Shown here piece by piece: positions 22,405-35,859 of a stretch of DNA of 59,636 nt. A model generated the notes under the pieces. That model was not told the origin of the DNA and did no database searches. It saw nothing but the letters and a program-made list of their open reading frames with translations. The translations under genes and the position numbers were made by a program. The stretch covers positions 1 through 59,636 of the forward strand of contig JASJCM010000010.1 in the NCBI GenBank assembly GCA_030065985.1. Direction: 5' to 3'. The stretch comes from Woeseiaceae bacterium (GTDB taxonomy: Bacteria > Pseudomonadota > Gammaproteobacteria > Steroidobacterales > Woeseiaceae). Each line of letters begins with the position of its first letter. Position 1 is the stretch's first letter.

Positions 22405-23178
22405 CTACCCTGCGCTTGCGACGACGAGCAACGGACCTTTGGATACGACCACACCACCTGGCTGTTCGCGCGTAATAGCAAACGCAACAGGATCGCTGAC
22501 TGCAAGCTTGGCATTGATAGGAATCACGACAGTCGATGTTCCTGCAGGAATATCGAAAACGCCGCCATCGACTGGATTGCCATCGCGCTCCGGGTCAACA
22601 ACCCACAGCTGGTATTGGGACCTGGCGGGATCGTTAACAGGCATACCGGTGAGCAGCATGTAGCCCTCCTGCCGCTCGTCGCTCCACACAACATCGCCCC
22701 TGACCGCCGCGTATTCGGAATCCACAGGCGTTGCCCAAGGCAGACGCTTTGCGTCGCCGGCGTCAGCCAGGAGCTCTTCACGAGCTGCCTCGACACTCGA
22801 CGATGTATCGAAATCGACCAAGGTCGTCGCCAGCAGCACCAGGGCAAGCGCCGCGGCGGTTGCCCATCCCCAGCTCCACCGCGGCGTGGGTCGGGGTTGC
22901 GGCTGCATTGGTACGACGTTGTCGCCCCCCGGGCCAAAGAAGCTGTCTGCGTCGGCACGCAGCTTCGCTCTTAGCGTTTCGGGCGCATTCTCCAGGTCCC
23001 GGGCACTCTCGAGGCCGAAGGCGTTCGCCGCTGCCGCGGCGGCGAGGTCGAGGTCAGTCGTGTCCTGCACGCCATGCTCCGTCAGCAGTTCCTGCAAGCG
23101 GCGCGCCTGATCGGCGTTGAGTCCCTCGGTAGCTCGTATCGTCAGGAGCTCGAGAATGTCGGGATGGATGTCGTTCAT
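22405..23178 (-). CDS. Anti-sigma factor, RskA family
   Basis: Protein of 257 residues. The N-terminal part is helical and cytoplasmic (MNDIHPDILELLTIRATEGL, then NADQARRLQELLTEHG). One transmembrane segment (WGWATAAALALVLLATTLVD, about residues 104-123) separates it from a periplasmic RskA-type domain with SQYQLWVVDPERDGNPVDGG, VFDIPAGTSTVVIP and VAFAITREQPGG. It overlaps the sigma gene by 4 nt, the classical pairing in which this protein holds the sigma factor at the membrane until a signal triggers proteolysis. Confidence 0.9.
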   Translation of the reverse strand: MNDIHPDILELLTIRATEGLNADQARRLQELLTEHGVQDTTDLDLAAAAAANAFGLESARDLENAPETLRAKLRADADSFFGPGGDNVVPMQPQPRPTPRWSWGWATAAALALVLLATTLVDFDTSSSVEAAREELLADAGDAKRLPWATPVDSEYAAVRGDVVWSDERQEGYMLLTGMPVNDPARSQYQLWVVDPERDGNPVDGGVFDIPAGTSTVVIPINAKLAVSDPVAFAITREQPGGVVVSKGPLLVVASAG

Positions 23179-23729
23179 GATGTTGCCTTGCCCGCGAGCG
23201 CTGGCTCGCCGAGTACTTCACGTATCTTGACCAGGCCTCGTGCCACGTAGCTTTTGACGGTTCCGAGCGGGATACCGGTCTGCTCGGCTATCGCACTGTG
23301 CGACATACCCAGCCACGAGGCCATATTGATCACTTCCTGCTGTTCGGGTTTGAGAGTGCGAATAGCATCGACCACGCGTTCGAGTTCCGCGTTGGCTTCG
23401 AGGAGACCCGTTGCATCTTCACAAAGAGAGTGCTCGATTTCATCAAGAGCCTCGGCGACGGGCTCATTGTCGAGCTTGCGGCGTCGGTCGATCAGGCGGC
23501 GCCGCGCAATCATCGACACAAAAGTCACTTCGCCGGCAACGCCAGGGTCGAAGCGCTCAGCCTTCTCCCACAGTTCAAGGAATATTTCCTGTACGGCTTC
23601 TTCAGCGTCAGCCTCGTTTTGCAGGAAGCGACGCGCGAGCGACCAGACAAGGCCGCTGTAAGTATCAATGCAAGCGGCGACCGCTGCGCGATCGCCGCCT
23701 GCAATTCGCTGTAGAAGCGTGTCGGTCAC
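23175..23729 (-). CDS. ECF RNA polymerase sigma factor (SigK-like context)
   Basis: Protein of 184 residues starting at a GTG at 23729. Region 2 is FLQNEADAEEAVQEIFLELW then EKAERFDPGVAGEVTFVSMI; region 4 is LKPEQQEVINMASWLGMSHS then AIAEQTGIPLGTVKSYVARG. It directs RNA polymerase to a small regulon, probably including its own operon. It lies 14 nt downstream of the fasciclin gene and overlaps the anti-sigma gene. In Mycobacterium tuberculosis, SigK with RskA controls the fasciclin proteins MPT70/MPT83, and this operon has the same three parts. Confidence 0.93.
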   Translation of the reverse strand: MTDTLLQRIAGGDRAAVAACIDTYSGLVWSLARRFLQNEADAEEAVQEIFLELWEKAERFDPGVAGEVTFVSMIARRRLIDRRRKLDNEPVAEALDEIEHSLCEDATGLLEANAELERVVDAIRTLKPEQQEVINMASWLGMSHSAIAEQTGIPLGTVKSYVARGLVKIREVLGEPALAGKATS

Positions 23730-30512: not shown

Positions 30513-31253
30513 TTAGGGCAATCGTGTCGAGAACATCATGTAGTTGACGGCCGTCGATGGAGTCACGCGAAGGCTGCGAGCGAATGGGTTTGCGGCCACG
30601 CCGACGGCATCTTGAACGGCAAGGCCGCCGGCTTCGAGGTAGGTCTCGATTTCACGCGGTTTCTGGAACATTGACCAGCGATGAGTACCGCGTGGCAGCC
30701 ATCGCAGTATGTATTCCGCGCCGACGATCGCGAACAGCCATGCTTTGGGCGTGCGGTTGATCGTAGCCACGAACATGACGCCTGAATCCGCGGTGAGCGT
30801 TGTGCAATCCCGCATGAAAGCCGCTACGTCCGCGACGTGCTCAACCACCTCCATGTTAAGAACGACATCAAATCTCTCGCCGGACGCGGCGACCTCGGCT
30901 GCCGTCGCAACCCGATAGTCTATATCGAGCGCTTCTTCCGCGGCATGTGTGGACGCGATGCGAATGTTCTTCTCGACAACATCGATACCGGTCACCAAGG
31001 CGCCAAGGCGCGCCATCGACTCGGAAAGTATTCCCCCACCACAGCCAACGTCGAGCACGCGCAGGCCCTCGAGTGGCTTCCGGATACCACTATTCTGGTT
31101 GAAATGCGCACAGAGCTTGTCGCGAATGTAAGCGATACGAAGGTCGTTGAGTTTATGCAATGGCCAGAAAGGGCCTGCCCGGTCCCACCAGGTGGCGGCC
31201 ATGCGCGAGTAGAACTCAACCTCTCTCGGGTCGATCGTTGAATCCTGAATCAT
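30513..31253 (-). CDS. ubiG: Ubiquinone biosynthesis O-methyltransferase
   Basis: Protein of 246 residues. EVEFYSRMAATWWDRAGPFW then PLHKLNDLR is the UbiG N-terminal signature. The SAM site is VLDVGCGGGILSESMARLGA; the acidic residue of GIDVVEKNI follows. NMEVVEHVADV and TINRTPKAWLFAIVGAEYIL then RWLPRGTHRW are UbiG-specific. It methylates both hydroxyls during ubiquinone synthesis, at the membrane surface. Its start overlaps the DMT transporter stop by 4 nt, so it is the last gene of a three-gene minus-strand operon. Confidence 0.95.
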   Translation of the reverse strand: MIQDSTIDPREVEFYSRMAATWWDRAGPFWPLHKLNDLRIAYIRDKLCAHFNQNSGIRKPLEGLRVLDVGCGGGILSESMARLGALVTGIDVVEKNIRIASTHAAEEALDIDYRVATAAEVAASGERFDVVLNMEVVEHVADVAAFMRDCTTLTADSGVMFVATINRTPKAWLFAIVGAEYILRWLPRGTHRWSMFQKPREIETYLEAGGLAVQDAVGVAANPFARSLRVTPSTAVNYMMFSTRLP

Positions 31254-32206
31254 GCGTCCTCCCTAGCAACAGCCCTGGGCGGTGCGAAGACTCGCTGGCG
31301 TAATGCCCGCAATTGCATAACAGCACGCGAACCGAATTCGCTCAGGCCGATACCCGACAGGATGAGCGCCAGACCGAGGAACACCGATGTCGATATCGCC
31401 TCGTCGAGAAGCAACGCGCCAGCAATTACAGCCCAGGCAGGTACGAGATAATTAACAAAGGAAAGGAATGTCGGTCCCGGACCCTGGACGAGTCGAAAAT
31501 ACAGCAGCGTGGCGAAGCCGGTAGCAAGCAAGCCGAGCACAATGAGCGCTGCGACGGATGCAGGACCGGGTACTGCAATAGCCGGCAGCTCGAGCAAAGC
31601 GGCAGGACTAGCCAGGATGCTCGCAACGATGAGCATGCCCGCAGCCCTTCTCACCGGATCGCCAGCGCCAAGCCGCCGCGCATAGATAGTGCTGATCGAG
31701 TAGCTAAGCGCTGCGCCGAGAGCGGCAATCGTCCCGAGCAGAGCCGTGTTGCCGGCGAGTCCGCGGAGAAATTCTGGTCCGATAATCACGGTTACGCCGG
31801 CGAAACCAACAAAGAACCCTGCCAGGCGAAAGGCAGTGAGCTTCGCGCCTGGGATGAAAAAGTGCGCGAGCGTCAGTACGAACAGCGGCATGACCGCCAT
31901 CAGGATTCCGGCAAGTGACGAGGTAATGTGTAACTGCGCCCACGCAATGAGGTGGAAAGGCAGCACGTTGCCAAACACTGCGAGAACGACCATTGGAATC
32001 CAGGCGCGTCCAGCCCTTGGCAGCGTCTCGCCGGTGAGGCGCAAATAGCCATAGATAAGGACGGTCGCGATAACGATTCGACCTGCGACAAGCACGGAAG
32101 GCGTGAATGACGCCAGAGCGAGCTCATTGAAGAAGAACGCACTGCCCCACAAAACCGTGAGTGCGAGCAGCGACAGCCAGTCCCCTGCGTGTGGCGCTCG
32201 AGGCAT
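31250..32206 (-). CDS. DMT superfamily (EamA) transporter
   Basis: Protein of 318 residues with ten predicted TM helices in two EamA repeats (LTVLWGSAFFFNELALASFT in the first; GAALSYSISTIYARRLGAGD in the second). DMT proteins export amino acids, nucleotide sugars or other metabolites; the substrate is not predictable. It starts 3 nt after the DUF4149 gene ends and overlaps ubiG by 4 nt. Confidence 0.9.
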   Translation of the reverse strand: MPRAPHAGDWLSLLALTVLWGSAFFFNELALASFTPSVLVAGRIVIATVLIYGYLRLTGETLPRAGRAWIPMVVLAVFGNVLPFHLIAWAQLHITSSLAGILMAVMPLFVLTLAHFFIPGAKLTAFRLAGFFVGFAGVTVIIGPEFLRGLAGNTALLGTIAALGAALSYSISTIYARRLGAGDPVRRAAGMLIVASILASPAALLELPAIAVPGPASVAALIVLGLLATGFATLLYFRLVQGPGPTFLSFVNYLVPAWAVIAGALLLDEAISTSVFLGLALILSGIGLSEFGSRAVMQLRALRQRVFAPPRAVAREDA

Positions 32207-32209
32207 CGC

Positions 32210-32662
32210 TCAGACTCCTTGTGCCGCCAGTGTCGATACCGCGACGAGTACCGCGATGCCAAGCAAGAGAATTACGACCGTCAACAGGACACTAATGCGA
32301 TGCAGGCGAGAGAATAGCGCTTCACCGGCTTGACCGGCGTCGCGCGCGGCGTTGATTTGTGGAACCATCCTCAACGACACAGCCTCGAACAGAACCATAA
32401 CGGACGTCACAACCGCGAGAGCGACGACACCCGGAGGCCACGCGGCCAATACACCGAGCCAGATCAGCCCCGCCAGCATCACGAGGCCGCAGACAAGCCC
32501 CAGCCGGAAAAACCGCGGAAACAGGGTGCGCAGGAATGTGCGGGCGGCGGACTCGTTGAGATCAGCGAATACCGTCGGCGCAACCACCGCAGTCTGGAAA
32601 ATGATGGCGCCCACCCAGATCCCGGCCGAGATGGTCAAAAGCGCTGTTGCAAAGCTCGTCAT
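32210..32662 (-). CDS. DUF4149 (TMEM205-like) integral membrane protein
   Basis: Protein of 150 residues with four TM helices. SAGIWVGAIIFQTAVVAPTV then FADLNESAARTFLRTLFPRF is the DUF4149/TMEM205 N-terminal pattern. Function is unknown in bacteria. It is the first gene of the operon with the DMT transporter and ubiG and is divergent from the Coq7-like gene. Its start codon lies at the edge of the repeat cluster at 32661-32708, so it may share regulation with the coq7-merR pair. Confidence 0.8.
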   Translation of the reverse strand: MTSFATALLTISAGIWVGAIIFQTAVVAPTVFADLNESAARTFLRTLFPRFFRLGLVCGLVMLAGLIWLGVLAAWPPGVVALAVVTSVMVLFEAVSLRMVPQINAARDAGQAGEALFSRLHRISVLLTVVILLLGIAVLVAVSTLAAQGV

Positions 32663-32708
32663 GTCGAGATATTGTCTATTTAGTGTCTATTAAAAAACGA
32701 GACAATAT
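32661..32708. promoter_or_regulatory. TGTCTA repeat cluster: candidate operator of the CarH/LitR-like MerR regulator
   Basis: Three tandem 11-bp units each carry TGTCKA: 32661-32671 (ATGTCGAGATA), 32672-32682 (TTGTCTATTTA) and 32683-32693 (GTGTCTATTAA). A 9-bp perfect inverted repeat (ATATTGTCT at 32669-32677, AGACAATAT at 32700-32708) overlaps them and ends at the coq7 ATG. Another TTGTCTA is at 32724-32730 inside the gene. The same motif is in the 34300-34338 site. CarH proteins are known to bind 11-bp direct repeats, so this is probably the autoregulatory site; binding is inferred. Confidence 0.65.
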
Positions 32709-33266
32709 ATGAACATTTCGGGTTTGTCTATCGAACCCTTCGATCAACTGCCGCTTTCGCCGGACACGGTCGCTGATCTGCGCTCTGACCACGCTGGAGA
32801 GACAGGCGCCGTCCAGATCTACCGCGGGATGCTCGCCGTTTCGCGAGACCCAGTCGTCCAGCGCTTTGCGCTGACGCATATCCGTGCCGAGCTTCGCCAC
32901 CTGCGCTTTTTCGATCGTTGGCTACCCATGCGCTATCAAAGCCGCTTGCTACCTGTATGGCGCGCTGCCGGGTGGCTACTGGGCGCCGGCTCCGCGTTAT
33001 TTGGCCGTCGCGCGGCATTCCACACGGTCGCGGCCGTCGAGACGTTTGTGGAGCGGCACTACCTCGCCCAGATCGAAGTCATGGACAAGACGCCGCGTCT
33101 CGAAAACTTGTGTCGCGTGTTGCGCCACTTCTGCGACGAAGAGGTACATCATCGCAATGATGCGAGCAGTCGAGTAGCCGAGACCCCGGGCTGGTTACCG
33201 CGCGCCTGGGCGCACGTCGTCGGGCTGGGTTCGATGTTCGGCGTTCTAGTCGCCCGTAAGGTATAA
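32709..33266 (+). CDS. coq7: Coq7-like demethoxyubiquinone hydroxylase family protein
   Basis: Protein of 185 residues. The diiron ligands of Coq7 are all visible: LRSDHAGETGAVQIYRGML (Glu), ELRHLRFFDRW (Glu-x-x-His), VETFVERHYLAQ (Glu) and CDEEVHHRNDAS (Glu-x-x-His). The family hydroxylates the C6 of the quinone ring in ubiquinone synthesis. The ATG at 32709 has little ribosome site because the operator arm covers that stretch. It is one base before the MerR gene, an unusual partnership for a housekeeping step; it may be a conditional enzyme or act on another quinone or substrate. Confidence 0.88.
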   Translation: MNISGLSIEPFDQLPLSPDTVADLRSDHAGETGAVQIYRGMLAVSRDPVVQRFALTHIRAELRHLRFFDRWLPMRYQSRLLPVWRAAGWLLGAGSALFGRRAAFHTVAAVETFVERHYLAQIEVMDKTPRLENLCRVLRHFCDEEVHHRNDASSRVAETPGWLPRAWAHVVGLGSMFGVLVARKV

Positions 33267-33267
33267 C

Positions 33268-34278
33268 GTGTCAGATCACGCACCAGGTAATCGTATGAAT
33301 TCACAAACCAGCAGCAGCGAGCACCAATTCGGCATCGGTGCTGTCGCAAAAATGACAGGATTGACAGACCACACGATTCGCGTCTGGGAGCGCCGCTATG
33401 GCGCGGTCATTGCCGGCAGGGCGGCGAACGGTCGGCGGATGTACAGCGCCGCCGACGTAGAGAAACTGGGCTTGCTGAAACGCCTGACGGACGAGGACTT
33501 TTCGATCGGCCAGATCGCTGGCGATAGCATCGACGAACTGCGACAGCGCGCCAAAAAGTTAGACGAGATTGTCGGCGCGCCGCTACCTGACAGTATAAGC
33601 ATCGCCGTTCTTGGCGATTTCCTGCCGAACCAGCTAGCAATGAGTGAGCTAGATCTTGCGCCGGTCGATGTCGTTGTGGCGGACAGCAACCGCGACCGTT
33701 TCATTGCTGATCTGCGTCGGCACGACATTGACGTCATCGTCGTTGAATCTCCGGTACTCGATAGCAGCGTGTCGACACAATTACTCGACTTGATGCAACA
33801 GGCCAAAGCGGAACGCGGTGTACTTGTCTACAGTTTTGGCCGAGCCAGAGATGTCGACCTTGCTCGCGACGCTCGCATACATGTTTTGCGCGCACCGGCG
33901 AATGTGGACGAAGTACGTGCCGCTGTTATGCGCGCATATTCGCCCGGCGCATCGAAGCGAGCCGCACTGAAACCGCAGACGGACGAAGCTGGGTCTGATT
34001 GGGATTTCTCGGGGCCCGTTGCGCCACGGCGCTTCAACAATTTACAGCTGGCAACGCTGGCTCGGGCATCAACCAGCATCGACTGCGAGTGTCCGCATCA
34101 TCTCGCACAGCTCGTTGGCGACCTGTCGGCTTTCGAGGTCTACAGCGCCAACTGCGCAAACCGTGACGAGGAAGATGCTGCATTGCACCGCTATCTCCAC
34201 CAAACGACCGCACACGCCCGTGCATTGATTGAAGAGGCGCTTGAGCGCGTGGCGAGAGCCGAAGGTATCGAGTACTGA
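33268..34278 (+). CDS. MerR-family regulator of CarH/LitR architecture with degenerate cobalamin-type domain
   Basis: Protein of 336 residues from a GTG at 33268 with AAGGT upstream; an ATG at 33295 is possible. Residues about 20-85 are a MerR helix-turn-helix (FGIGAVAKMTGLTDHTIRVW followed by ERRYG). Residues about 105-225 look like a Rossmann-like alpha/beta domain (ISIAVLGDFLPNQLAMSELD, VDVVVADSNRDRFIADLRRH and IDVIVVESPVLDSSVSTQLL) placed as the B12-binding domain is in CarH/LitR, but without its DxHxxG cobalamin motif. A C-terminal helical part has CECPHHLAQLVGDLSAFEVY. It is likely a repressor of its own operon and of the photolyase-like gene; the signal is unlikely to be B12. Confidence 0.82.
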   Translation: MSDHAPGNRMNSQTSSSEHQFGIGAVAKMTGLTDHTIRVWERRYGAVIAGRAANGRRMYSAADVEKLGLLKRLTDEDFSIGQIAGDSIDELRQRAKKLDEIVGAPLPDSISIAVLGDFLPNQLAMSELDLAPVDVVVADSNRDRFIADLRRHDIDVIVVESPVLDSSVSTQLLDLMQQAKAERGVLVYSFGRARDVDLARDARIHVLRAPANVDEVRAAVMRAYSPGASKRAALKPQTDEAGSDWDFSGPVAPRRFNNLQLATLARASTSIDCECPHHLAQLVGDLSAFEVYSANCANRDEEDAALHRYLHQTTAHARALIEEALERVARAEGIEY

Positions 34279-34299
34279 CCGGGCGTTACACTTTGTTAC

Positions 34300-34338
34300 T
34301 TTTTTGTCTAGCTTTTATATAGACAAAAAATTGACAAA
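34300..34338. promoter_or_regulatory. Second candidate operator of the MerR regulator (11-bp inverted repeat plus direct repeat)
   Basis: TTTTTTGTCTA at 34300-34310 and TAGACAAAAAA at 34320-34330 are a perfect 11-bp inverted repeat with a 9-bp spacer. GACAAA recurs at 34322-34327 and 34333-34338, exactly 11 bp apart, and the second copy overlaps the -35 element TTGACA at 34331-34336. The core TTGTCTA is the same as in the 32661-32708 cluster. Occupancy would block the promoter, which fits a repressor. Confidence 0.65.
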
Positions 34339-34358
34339 GAACCAGCAACAGCTATTCT
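34331..34358 (+). promoter_or_regulatory. Sigma70-type promoter
   Basis: A consensus -35 TTGACA (34331-34336), 16-bp spacer and -10 TATTCT (34353-34358) predict transcription starting near 34365, past the merR stop. It would produce the candidate small RNA and, by read-through, the downstream small ORF and photolyase-like gene. It overlaps the candidate operator. Confidence 0.6.
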
Positions 34359-34364
34359 GTAGCC

Positions 34365-34446
34365 ACGGTCTGGATACGTCTGGCGTGCCAGCCGAGCAGA
34401 GGACGACCTCTCCTCCCCATAACGTCTTCGTTCTCTGCTTTTTTTT
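34365..34446 (+). ncRNA. Candidate terminated small RNA or attenuated leader, about 80 nt
   Basis: From the predicted start near 34365 the transcript would reach the intrinsic terminator whose T-run ends at 34446. No ribosome site with an ORF is obvious in it. The terminator loop contains a C/U-rich anti-Shine-Dalgarno-like segment (CCTCTCCTCCCC at 34407-34418). It might be a regulatory RNA under the MerR operator, or a leader whose termination controls the photolyase-like gene. The 5' end is approximate and inferred. Confidence 0.45.
34395..34446 (+). terminator. Rho-independent terminator
   Basis: The arm AGCAGAGGACGA (34395-34406) pairs with TCGTTCTCTGCT (34428-34439), a 12-bp stem with one G-U pair, followed by a run of eight T (34439-34446). 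It lies 117 nt after merR and before the next gene, so it ends either the merR message or the short RNA begun at the 34331-34358 promoter. Confidence 0.8.
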
Positions 34447-34449
34447 ATT

Positions 34450-34472
34450 GGGCCGGCGCATGGCGCCGGCCC
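34450..34472 (+). repeat. Perfect GC-rich hairpin just after the terminator
   Basis: GGGCCGGCGC (34450-34459) and GCGCCGGCCC (34463-34472) are perfectly complementary with an ATG triplet as loop. There is no T-tract downstream, so it is not itself a terminator. It lies 27 nt before the small ORF at 34500 and may act on read-through RNA. Confidence 0.6.
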
Positions 34473-34499
34473 ACTCTTCTAACAGAGGGTAAGTGAACA

Positions 34500-34622
34500 A
34501 TGGAAATGCTCGTATTGCTCGGCCTCGGTCTTGTTACATTGGCAGTTATCGATCGGCAACATGCGGCGATGCGGCGCATGATGAAGGCGCCCATCGAGAC
34601 CGATGAGAAGCGCGATCGCTGA
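34500..34622 (+). CDS. Small (40 aa) single-TM protein, leader of the photolyase-like gene
   Basis: The ATG at 34500 is preceded by AGAGGGTAAG, a good ribosome site. The peptide is MEMLVLLGLGLVTLAVIDRQ followed by HAAMRRMMKAPIETDEKRDR: one hydrophobic helix and a basic tail. The last 20 nt overlap the photolyase-like start at 34603, so translation is probably coupled. No similarity is recognised. Confidence 0.6.
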   Translation: MEMLVLLGLGLVTLAVIDRQHAAMRRMMKAPIETDEKRDR

Positions 34623-35859
34623 ATCCAACCGGGCGGCCGGGCTTGACAGGCTACAGGCCTTCGCGAGTAAGGCCGGCTCTCGCTACACCAAGTCCCGTAA
34701 CTTCGATTTCGGGCCAGGAAGGCACGGTAACGTGTCAATGCTGTCTCCCTACGTCAGGCATCGGCTCGTGCTGGAGCACGAAGTCATAGGCGCCGCACTC
34801 AGACACCACGCGTTCAGCACCGCAGAAAAATTTATCCAGGAAGTATTCTGGAGATCTTATTTCAAGGGCTGGCTCGAGCATCGACCTCGCGTCTGGGCAG
34901 ACTATCGCGAAGACGTCGCGAAGCTCATCCGCGACGTGGAAACGGACTCGCAACTGGCCGAGCGTTACAGCAAAGCCCTGAGTGGCGACACTGGCATTGA
35001 GTGTTTCGACGCATGGGTTTCGGAACTGTTGTCAACCGGTTACCTGCACAACCATGCACGTATGTGGTTCGCAAGCATCTGGGTCTTCACGCTGGATCTG
35101 CCTTGGCAGCTGGGCGCTGATTTGTTTTACCGGCACCTAGTCGACGGCGACCCCGCATCGAATACCCTGAGCTGGCGCTGGGTCTGCGGACTGCATACGC
35201 AGGGCAAAACCTACCTCGCACGCGCCTCGAATATCGCGAAATTCACCGACGATCGATTCAACCCGGAAGGCCAGCTGGCGACTGACGCGCCATCGTTGGT
35301 TGAGCCGACAGTCTACTCAGTCCAGCCGCTTCGTGACGCGCAGGCACTGCCGCCGGGCGAATCCTTCGGTCTGTTAGTCACCGAAGAAGACGGTTATCCC
35401 GAGTCGCTCCTCGGCGGCCAGGCGCCCACCGCCATTCTTGGTGCCGTTGCGCCGGGGGCACGCTCACCATTGCCGATAGGTGGCAAAGCTGAGGACTTCG
35501 TGCTCGGGGCGGTGCGCGATGCGGTCGAAAGAGCAGGATCTTTCTTTGGCGTCGACGGGGAAATACTGGTGTCCGAAGACTGGCAGAGCGAAGTCGTCGC
35601 ATGGGCGACCCGGCATCGGCTTAAGACGATTGCAACAGCATATGCGCCTGTCGGCCCAACTGCCGAGCTGCTGGAGAAAGTCCGTGATGAACTTAATCGT
35701 CACGGCATTACCTTGCTGCAGATACGCCGTCCTTACGACGAGACCGTCTGGCCGCATGCGCAGCGTGGGTTCTTCAAGCTTAAGCAACAGATTCCGGCGA
35801 TGCTTGAGCGAATGGGCGCCGAGAACGGTGCGGTTCGTGTTGCCACGACGGCTGGCTAG
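34603..35859 (+). CDS. FAD-binding cryptochrome/photolyase-like protein with reversed domain order
   Basis: Protein of 418 residues. The first 230 residues are a photolyase/cryptochrome FAD domain: SRYTKSRNFDFGPGRHGNVS followed by MLSPYVRHRLV, FIQEVFWRSYFKGWLEHRP, LHNHARMWFASIWVF and NTLSWRWVCGLHTQGKTYLA. The usual N-terminal antenna alpha/beta domain is absent. Instead residues about 240-400 (ESFGLLVTEEDGYPESLLGG, VSEDWQSEVVAWATRHRLKT, ELLEKVRDELNRHGITLLQI) resemble that domain but sit C-terminally. It lies after a MerR regulator and its operator, so it is probably a light-related sensor or repair enzyme; activity is not established. It ends 3 nt from the convergent permease. Confidence 0.82.
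   Translation: MRSAIAESNRAAGLDRLQAFASKAGSRYTKSRNFDFGPGRHGNVSMLSPYVRHRLVLEHEVIGAALRHHAFSTAEKFIQEVFWRSYFKGWLEHRPRVWADYREDVAKLIRDVETDSQLAERYSKALSGDTGIECFDAWVSELLSTGYLHNHARMWFASIWVFTLDLPWQLGADLFYRHLVDGDPASNTLSWRWVCGLHTQGKTYLARASNIAKFTDDRFNPEGQLATDAPSLVEPTVYSVQPLRDAQALPPGESFGLLVTEEDGYPESLLGGQAPTAILGAVAPGARSPLPIGGKAEDFVLGAVRDAVERAGSFFGVDGEILVSEDWQSEVVAWATRHRLKTIATAYAPVGPTAELLEKVRDELNRHGITLLQIRRPYDETVWPHAQRGFFKLKQQIPAMLERMGAENGAVRVATTAG

Follow-up and report, generated by a model that had tools for sequence, protein, structure and literature searches.

CarH of Thermus, Bacillus and the Myxococcales is a photoreceptor-repressor that uses adenosyl-B12 (AdoB12), and CarA of Myxococcus keeps a CarH-type C-terminus. 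In the excerpts of PMC9304148 available to us, the CarH repeat is given as nnnnTnnACAn, with one repeat including the -35 element in Thermus, and CarA is described as B12-independent, binding 11-bp repeats, with inverted repeats at its operator, and derepressed by CarS. Class II LitR proteins (PplR of P. putida, PmlR2 of P. mendocina) are, in excerpts of PMC9758184, MerR proteins near light-induced genes including a photolyase, which make no use of B12, keep a B12-binding_2-like domain and bind TGTACA-N12-TGTACA. Class III LitR proteins, found mainly in Burkholderia, have a MerR head, a C-terminus without a known domain, a light-dependent spectrum and a chromophore other than B12 (excerpts of PMC9758184 and PMC6739363). 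Here we describe a regulator gene, merR (33295-34278, plus strand), and its two operators in a stretch of 59,636 nucleotides, called the window below, from a Woeseiaceae bacterium (GenBank assembly GCA_030065985.1, contig JASJCM010000010.1, positions 1 to 59,636). We consider it probable, though by no great margin of confidence, that the product of merR is a B12-independent repressor of the LitR/CarH superfamily that also controls its own gene, which would bind half-sites over both -35 boxes and be released by light or photo-oxidative stress through a CxCPxH...C...H module, opening the coq7-merR and RNA-photolyase promoters and probably that of DUF4149.

The regulator shares with CarH the MerR head, the tandem 11-bp repeats, the TnnACA half-site (TAGACAA, or T-AG-ACA-A, the complement of TTGTCTA, fits it) and the -35 overlap, but it lacks a B12 domain or motif, carries receiver-like and CECP domains, and has a conserved inverted arrangement, TTGTCTA-N9-TAGACAA. 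With a helix-turn-helix (HTH) head and an 11-bp TnnACA operator both found, it can be assigned, as judged from sequence, to the LitR/CarH superfamily in the broad sense. The 11-bp repeats, the inverted repeats and the apparent B12 independence recall CarA, whose CarS-dependent derepression and CarH-type C-terminus set it apart. The regulator is like class II LitR in its photolyase neighbourhood and lack of B12 use, but has neither the B12-binding_2-like domain nor the class II operator. Its homologue in Burkholderia anthina, whose class III status we infer, lies in a photolyase cluster and has the CECP domain, and our regulator belongs to a wider family in which the described class III LitR (B. 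multivorans) is probably included; in contrast to the window, no TTGTCTA pairs (at least 6/7) were found in the four plasmid homologue loci of Burkholderia, Caballeronia and Methylomagnum.

Operators at the coq7-merR and photolyase promoters

Operator 1 (32661-32689, plus strand), between DUF4149 and coq7, consists of three half-sites, ATGTCGA (32661-32667), TTGTCTA (32672-32678) and GTGTCTA (32683-32689); their cores TGTCGA, TGTCTA and TGTCTA begin at 32662, 32673 and 32684, exactly 11 bp apart, as a preliminary description of this DNA had noted. That description missed an inverted half-site, TTGTCTC (32699-32705, minus strand), 9 bp beyond the last direct unit. A putative -10 element of the coq7-merR promoter, TATATG (32706-32711, plus strand), is suggested by 20 aligned upstream regions, and the half-site at 32683 would then sit at -35; a sigma-70 promoter scan did not report this promoter. 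An additional TTGTCTA (32724-32730, plus strand) lies near the likely transcription start, and near relatives have, by eye, similar half-sites at about equal offset. In 5000 dinucleotide shuffles of the 85-bp region, three units never appeared and two units appeared once, and no further run of at least two TGTCKA at 11-bp steps exists on either strand of the window. The alignment of operator 1 (20 rows, 18 with at least 11/14) reads TTGTCTA-nATA-nTGTCTA followed by a less conserved TATA; since this TATA stands 16-17 bp downstream, the second unit would lie at the -35 position.

Operator 2 (TTGTCTA-N9-TAGACAA) sits just 3' of merR and 5' of the photolyase-like gene. The perfect 11-bp inverted repeat and the 11-bp-spaced GACAAA pair reported earlier are indeed present, the former with arms TTTTTTGTCTA (34300-34310) and TAGACAAAAAA (34320-34330), the latter at 34322 and 34333. 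Read as half-sites, the operator comprises a weak outer TTGTTAC (34293-34299, plus strand) 11 bp before the first TTGTCTA, the inner TTGTCTA (34304-34310, plus strand), its inverted counterpart after a 9-bp gap (34320-34326, minus strand), and an outer TTGTCAA (34331-34337, minus strand) whose complement TTGACA (34331-34336) forms the -35 box. A sigma-70 scan of the window predicted a promoter with this -35 box and, after a 16-bp spacer, the -10 box TATTCT (34353-34358, plus strand), the same pair that emerges from the alignment of operator 2. This alignment (19 rows) reads TTGTTAC-AATA-TTGTCTA-N9-TAGACAA-AACA-TTGACA, then a weakly conserved -10-like TAgnct; 18 of the 19 rows score at least 11/14 (L038 misses, and L040 is 174 bp off in another arrangement), and TTGACA occupies the fourth half-site in 16. 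The fourth unit would be TTGTCAA rather than TTGTCTA because it doubles as the -35 box. Both operators thus have a common geometry: a plus-strand half-site, 9 bp, a minus-strand half-site, and more units 11 bp outward. When the 324-bp intergenic region was dinucleotide-shuffled 2000 times, a perfect 7-N9-7 inverted repeat arose 40 times, which is moderate evidence against chance; the total count of 7-bp inverted repeats there was reached in none of 300 shuffles.

Within the window, neither TTGTCTA (5 against 2.3 expected; as many in 12/100 shuffles) nor the direct pair with at most two mismatches (4 against 1.5; 7/100 shuffles) is enriched. We scanned 45 sequences (the window, 16 loci and 28 named loci, numbered L) for half-sites of at least 6/7 in two geometries, and obtained 74 site pairs against 0.6 per mononucleotide shuffle, a total inflated by several loci that represent one genome fetched by two tools. 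Pairs occurred in each of the 19 loci L031-L048 and L052 and one each in L050 and L051, and among relatives from the order two were found in L013 and one each in L014 and L015; the six Verrucomicrobiales loci (L053-L058) had none. The motif search across related genomes that the preliminary description had proposed found the motif conserved at orthologous loci, so that the absence named there as a refutation did not apply. The idea of one operator code of the CarH 11-bp repeat type, common to merR and the photolyase-like gene, is supported. We take this conservation as the decisive evidence that the predicted operators are real, and a chance motif was rejected because the sites are conserved at matching places.

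The genus survey covered 73 genomes (numbered G), largely incomplete, with the regulator counted at E <= 1e-30. It was present in 19 of them, the inverted pair (at most one mismatch) in 16, the direct pair in 18 and the photolyase-like gene in 18; it occurred together with these in 13, 13 and 17 genomes, respectively, with Fisher p-values of 1.3e-7, 1.6e-6 and 1.7e-13, which overstate independence because the genomes are related. The genome of the window (G000, 2.77 Mb, 84% complete) has a sole perfect inverted pair and a sole perfect direct pair, namely the two operators of the window, while its weaker matches are about as frequent as, or rarer than, those of reversed-pattern controls (30 against 26; 22 and 15 against 36 and 50).

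Targets on contigs other than that of merR still carry the operator in G025, G089 and G020, the labels coming from tblastn against proteins of the window or L034: an unlinked EamA gene (L098, 67% identity), coq7 (56%) and EamA-UbiG (57%, 62%) in L097, and HiPIP-photolyase (63%, 60%) and UbiG-DPRP (71%, 68%) in L114. G043 and G056, of one family, have a direct pair about 180-210 bp before a UbiG-like stretch. The local regulon proposed earlier holds insofar as the operator is common to linked genes, but a strictly local one was rejected because unlinked targets retain it. Site-like matches in or beside unrelated genes (L088, L096, L103, L108, L117, L123 and L125, judged by eye) were taken as chance.

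Regulator protein and relatives of its putative sensor module

The protein has 327 residues from ATG 33295, with an alternative start at GTG 33268. Its MerR DNA-binding head (about residues 12-75; 33328-33519, plus strand) matches Pfam MerR_1 at 1.3e-15 and is a MerR-type HTH of the CarH/MlrA subtype; the closest match in both NCBIfam and PDB (3whp/5c8d) is CarH, for the head only and far under the NCBIfam CarH cut-off. In agreement with the preliminary description, DxHxxG is absent from the protein, and none of 36 aligned homologues has it after the head (in one, the string stands before the HTH, by chance). W-x9-EH, the motif of the helical B12 domain of CarH, occurs in 0/36, and no B12 Pfam domain was detected up to E 0.1, including the B12-binding_2-like four-helix domain of class II LitR. 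AdoB12 sensing was rejected, there being no B12 domain and no DxHxxG after the head.

The middle domain (residues 98-218; 33586-33948, plus strand), earlier described as Rossmann-like and correctly as lacking DxHxxG, models as a receiver (CheY-like) fold. The phospho-acceptor position at the end of the third strand, Glu151 here, is occupied by Glu in 34 of the 36 homologues and by Asp in the other 2, and a phosphorelay receiver was rejected because of this Glu; we therefore speak of a pseudo-receiver. It is followed by a helical CECPxH...C...H domain (residues 246-323; 34030-34263, plus strand; C264, C266, H269, C287, H298), in which C264, C266, C287 and H298 are invariant in 36/36 homologues; CECP is present in 16/16 across three lineages. 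The VIA-align rows for the regulator lie mostly within residues 98-220, so this comparison hardly reached fold relatives of the CECP domain. MliR was set aside as a match, being described in excerpts of PMC9478572 without such a domain. The different sensor postulated earlier is better described as a pseudo-receiver plus a CxCPxH domain; taken together, the observations of the preliminary description are confirmed and its interpretation is partly supported.

Most of the regulator's nearest named relatives come from Woeseiaceae or other gammaproteobacterial metagenome bins. A more distant copy of the family was also seen in the genus (G064:C10, G095:C17 and G079:C236; 262-271 bits), which in G079 (262 bits) is the only copy. 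Plasmid proteins of B. anthina, B. arboris, Caballeronia and Methylomagnum share the common head and the CECP domain at 31-32% identity. The B. anthina homologue (32% over 97%) is encoded in a cluster with GTP cyclohydrolase I, an extracytoplasmic function (ECF) sigma factor, SDR, DUF3429, an FAD oxidoreductase, DUF2878 and a photolyase. In Caballeronia, a perfect 11-bp tandem repeat, TGAAACGATAA (L085:7919-7940), stands 5' of the homologous merR, with another half-site at equal spacing; in Methylomagnum, TTGTCAA and TTGTCAT are 11 bp apart by eye.

Across a phylum sample of 398 genomes, the module was found in nine at E <= 1e-10. Five of these, the genome of the window and L139-L142, have it with a MerR head; the other four encode proteins of 105-112 residues in one genus, g116 (L143-L146), which hold little beyond the CxCP...C...H domain, three of the four genes standing, as judged by eye, behind an apparent PfkB-type kinase gene. 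The merR gene of G417 has an ECF sigma gene behind it. The Verrucomicrobiales have the module without the MerR head, on the same strand behind an ECF sigma gene in four of six loci (L055-L058; called by Pfam for L055 and L058 and by 77-97% identity for L056 and L057); L053 has a sigma-like stretch on the opposite strand about 1 kb away, and no sigma gene was seen in L054. From sequence comparison, the receiver-like and CECP domains together would form a portable sensor, and a module without MerR head behind an ECF sigma gene is as expected of one. An ECF sigma factor-like open reading frame (ORF), 31% identical to the Verrucomicrobiales sigma, also lies in the window at 23175-23729, about 9 kb from the operators.

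Structured RNA behind operator 2 and genes of the locus

Directly 3' of operator 2, between 34395 and 34473, the window encodes a predicted structured RNA with two hairpins on the plus strand. Hairpin 1 (34395-34439) has a C/U-rich loop, CCTCTCCTCCCC (34407-34418), and a run of eight T at 34439-34446; hairpin 2 (34449-34473) is GGGCCGGCGC ATG GCGCCGGCCC. Our comparison used 18 chosen sequences (the window, L031-L037, L039, L041-L043, L045-L048, L018 and L090), drawn from 21 promoter matches with L043 added by hand and four matches left out: L010/L052 and L013, without such hairpins, and L006/L035 (other side) and L117, neither of which is operator 2. In stretches cut at the stem start, hairpin 1 was more stable than dinucleotide shuffles in every sequence (z < -2 in 18/18, mean -3.4), and a run of at least three C occurred in all 18. 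In the MAFFT alignment A4, the share of cells that pair is 88.2%, compared with 79.6% for shuffles and 36.9-49.1% for slid versions. Both-sided changes affect 9 of 17 pairs (as many in 10/500 shuffles), and the covariation score is 0.333 against 0.185 (0/500 shuffles), counts that are not probabilities because the sequences are related. At least four T stand after hairpin 2 in 14 of the 18 rows; the window has its T-run after hairpin 1. A simple terminator scan returned nothing in the window, because the loop of hairpin 1 has 21 nt and hairpin 2 has no T-run there.

Several rows of A4 and A5 have hairpin 1 wrongly placed by MAFFT, and our covariance model R1 was therefore limited to the nine pairs of hairpin 2. 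It matched at 38.8 bits or more, a cut-off chosen after viewing the list, in 18 of the 73 genus genomes, exactly those with the photolyase-like gene; of these 19 matches, 17 score as model members and two (G092:C76 and G020:C11) do not. The next match scores 37.4 bits, in G035, without the photolyase-like gene, and the others at most 33.9; G001, with the regulator and no photolyase-like gene, has no RNA at the 38.8-bit level. At E <= 0.01, 33 genomes have a match, some with hairpin 2 only. Rfam gave nothing over the gathering score on 32600-34650, only sub-threshold microRNA and snoRNA matches.

The RNA resembles the Cuckoo/CcsR/alpha-r14 RNAs; excerpts of PMC10253847 and PMC10746234 describe variable stems with a C/U-rich anti-Shine-Dalgarno-like loop for alpha-r14 and a role in stress defence for the CcsR RNAs. 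It differs from them in its loop, CCUCUCCUCCCC rather than the exact CCUCCUCCC, in having no Rfam match over threshold and in being tied to a LitR-type operator and a photolyase. It may act as a small RNA, as an attenuator or in both ways; in a literature search, the titles and abstracts listed showed no link of LitR with a small RNA, photolyase and light induction.

The photolyase-like flavoprotein gene (34603-35859, plus strand) encodes a protein in which the usual photolyase order is turned round, with the FAD domain first and the alpha/beta domain at the end, and its C-terminal domain was hardly covered by the VIA-align fold comparison. Between the RNA and this gene lies an ORF for a 40-residue putative small membrane protein (34500-34622, plus strand; assigned by eye), with no Pfam match and with comparable ORFs in some relatives. 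The COQ7-like hydroxylase gene (32709-33266, plus strand) stands 5' of merR and scores under the NCBIfam COQ7 cut-off; because its first ATG, at 32709, overlaps the -10-like TATATG, which is also present in near relatives without coq7, it may start further downstream, for example at TTG 32724. On the minus strand, a divergent operon (30513-32662) comprises as its first gene DUF4149, a membrane protein (32210-32662), then an EamA transporter (31250-32206), whose unlinked orthologues retain the operator, and a UbiG-like methyltransferase (30513-31253). By tblastn over 22 MerR-headed named loci, some cut short and with Pfam names, the genes beside merR were the photolyase-like gene in 13, DPRP in 9 (one only 36% identical), HiPIP in 8, a renalase-like oxidoreductase in 6, EamA and UbiG in 5 each, DUF4149 in 4 and COQ7 in 1, so coq7 5' of merR is uncommon. 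In 8 of the 22, for example L034:6165-6566, the HiPIP gene lies between operator 2 and the photolyase-like gene (alone in L052); missing from the window, it is a possible electron donor.

Mechanism and alternative explanations

From the operators, their conservation and co-occurrence with the regulator, the -35 overlap at operator 2, the unlinked targets and the RNA structure, the following mechanism can be proposed. The MerR heads would recognise TTGTCTA half-sites spaced by 11-bp steps, whether directly repeated or inverted, and in the dark the bound oligomer would cover the -35 elements of merR's own promoter and of the photolyase promoter, causing repression and autoregulation. The most likely sensor of light or photo-oxidative stress would be the C-terminal CxCPxH...C...H module, with a metal, Fe-S or thiol site, acting via the pseudo-receiver, whereupon the oligomer would leave the DNA. 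Release would open two promoters, that of coq7-merR and that of the small C-rich-loop RNA with the photolyase-like gene behind it (and the HiPIP gene in several relatives), and probably also the divergent one of DUF4149-EamA-UbiG. Binding, repression, the signal (light, singlet oxygen or redox), the cofactor and the action of the RNA are the proposed parts of this scheme, light being suggested by the target genes and by relatives.

Several observations weigh against this proposal. No site pair was found (at least 6/7) in L049 or in the order relatives L016 and L017, and of the 19 regulator genomes six lack the inverted pair and six the direct pair. Three genomes scored without the regulator have the inverted pair (G013, G036 and G061) and five the direct pair (G004, G018, G036, G063 and G068), although G036 holds a 40-residue C-terminal piece of the regulator, apparently cut by a contig end, and the other such sites that were read (L088, L096, L103, L108 and L117) look like chance matches. 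The AlphaFold secondary structure places C264/C266/H269 and C287/H298 at opposite ends of helix 266-285, so a single mononuclear site in the monomer is unlikely, and these residues would have to form two sites or one between subunits. BLUF is found in 5 of the 19 regulator genomes and in 0 of the 54 others, which suggests that a partner photoreceptor may serve some species.

This last count, which includes the genome of the window at C82, also speaks for an alternative in which the regulator is a passive repressor and a separate flavoprotein serves as light receptor, on the pattern of PmlR2 with a short LOV protein or BluR with BluF; excerpts of PMC9758184 describe a short LOV protein that turns off class II LitR and a BLUF protein that does so for E. 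coli BluR. We hold it unlikely. The NCRFLQ-type LOV motif, a strict pattern, occurs in 4/19 regulator genomes against 2/54 others, some of them incomplete, and is absent from the genome of the window at its 84% completeness; only 8/19 regulator genomes carry BLUF or this motif, so such a partner is not general. A scan of eight proteins encoded at and around merR in the window found no short LOV partner and no LOV or BLUF protein, and the invariant C/H module would be left unexplained. A small BLUF-domain protein of the window's genome (G000:C82:12613-12888, L134) is a possible light partner.

Somewhat more plausible, yet still in our view doubtful, is an input of redox, oxygen or metal status instead of light, with the photolyase as one member of an oxidative-stress regulon. 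The CxC...C...H set suits metal or thiol chemistry, the co-regulated genes for COQ7, UbiG and the HiPIP of relatives belong to redox or quinone chemistry, and a V. cholerae MerR encoded beside phr acts in a blue-light response linked to reactive oxygen species (excerpts of PMC5241685). What points to light or UV instead is the co-occurrence of the photolyase-like gene and the regulator, in 17/19 and 17/18 genomes, and the DPRP-type photolyase genes behind UbiG in relatives, e.g. L031, L034 and L114. That the TTGTCTA sites belong to another regulator, with merR a bystander, is conceivable since binding by the regulator is itself a prediction, but it appears very improbable: the sites lie on both sides of merR, they occur together with it across the 73 genomes, and they fit the half-site known for its head family (CarH).

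As for its meaning, how class III to V LitR, all without B12, sense light is named as an open question in excerpts of PMC9758184. For the autoregulated repressor proposed here, the operator code, the -35 geometry, the targets, the candidate sensing residues and the spread of the module are fixed enough for direct tests. A speculative extension, which we would not yet expect to hold in full, is that the receiver-like and CxCPxH...C...H domains form one portable unit that senses light or singlet oxygen without B12 and that bacteria join either to a MerR head or, in the manner of an anti-sigma-like partner, to an ECF sigma factor. In Woeseiaceae this unit would switch on, together with the photolyase, a dedicated anti-Shine-Dalgarno small RNA that would lower translation during light stress. 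Such a possible light-induced small RNA would be an unexpected RNA output of the switch.

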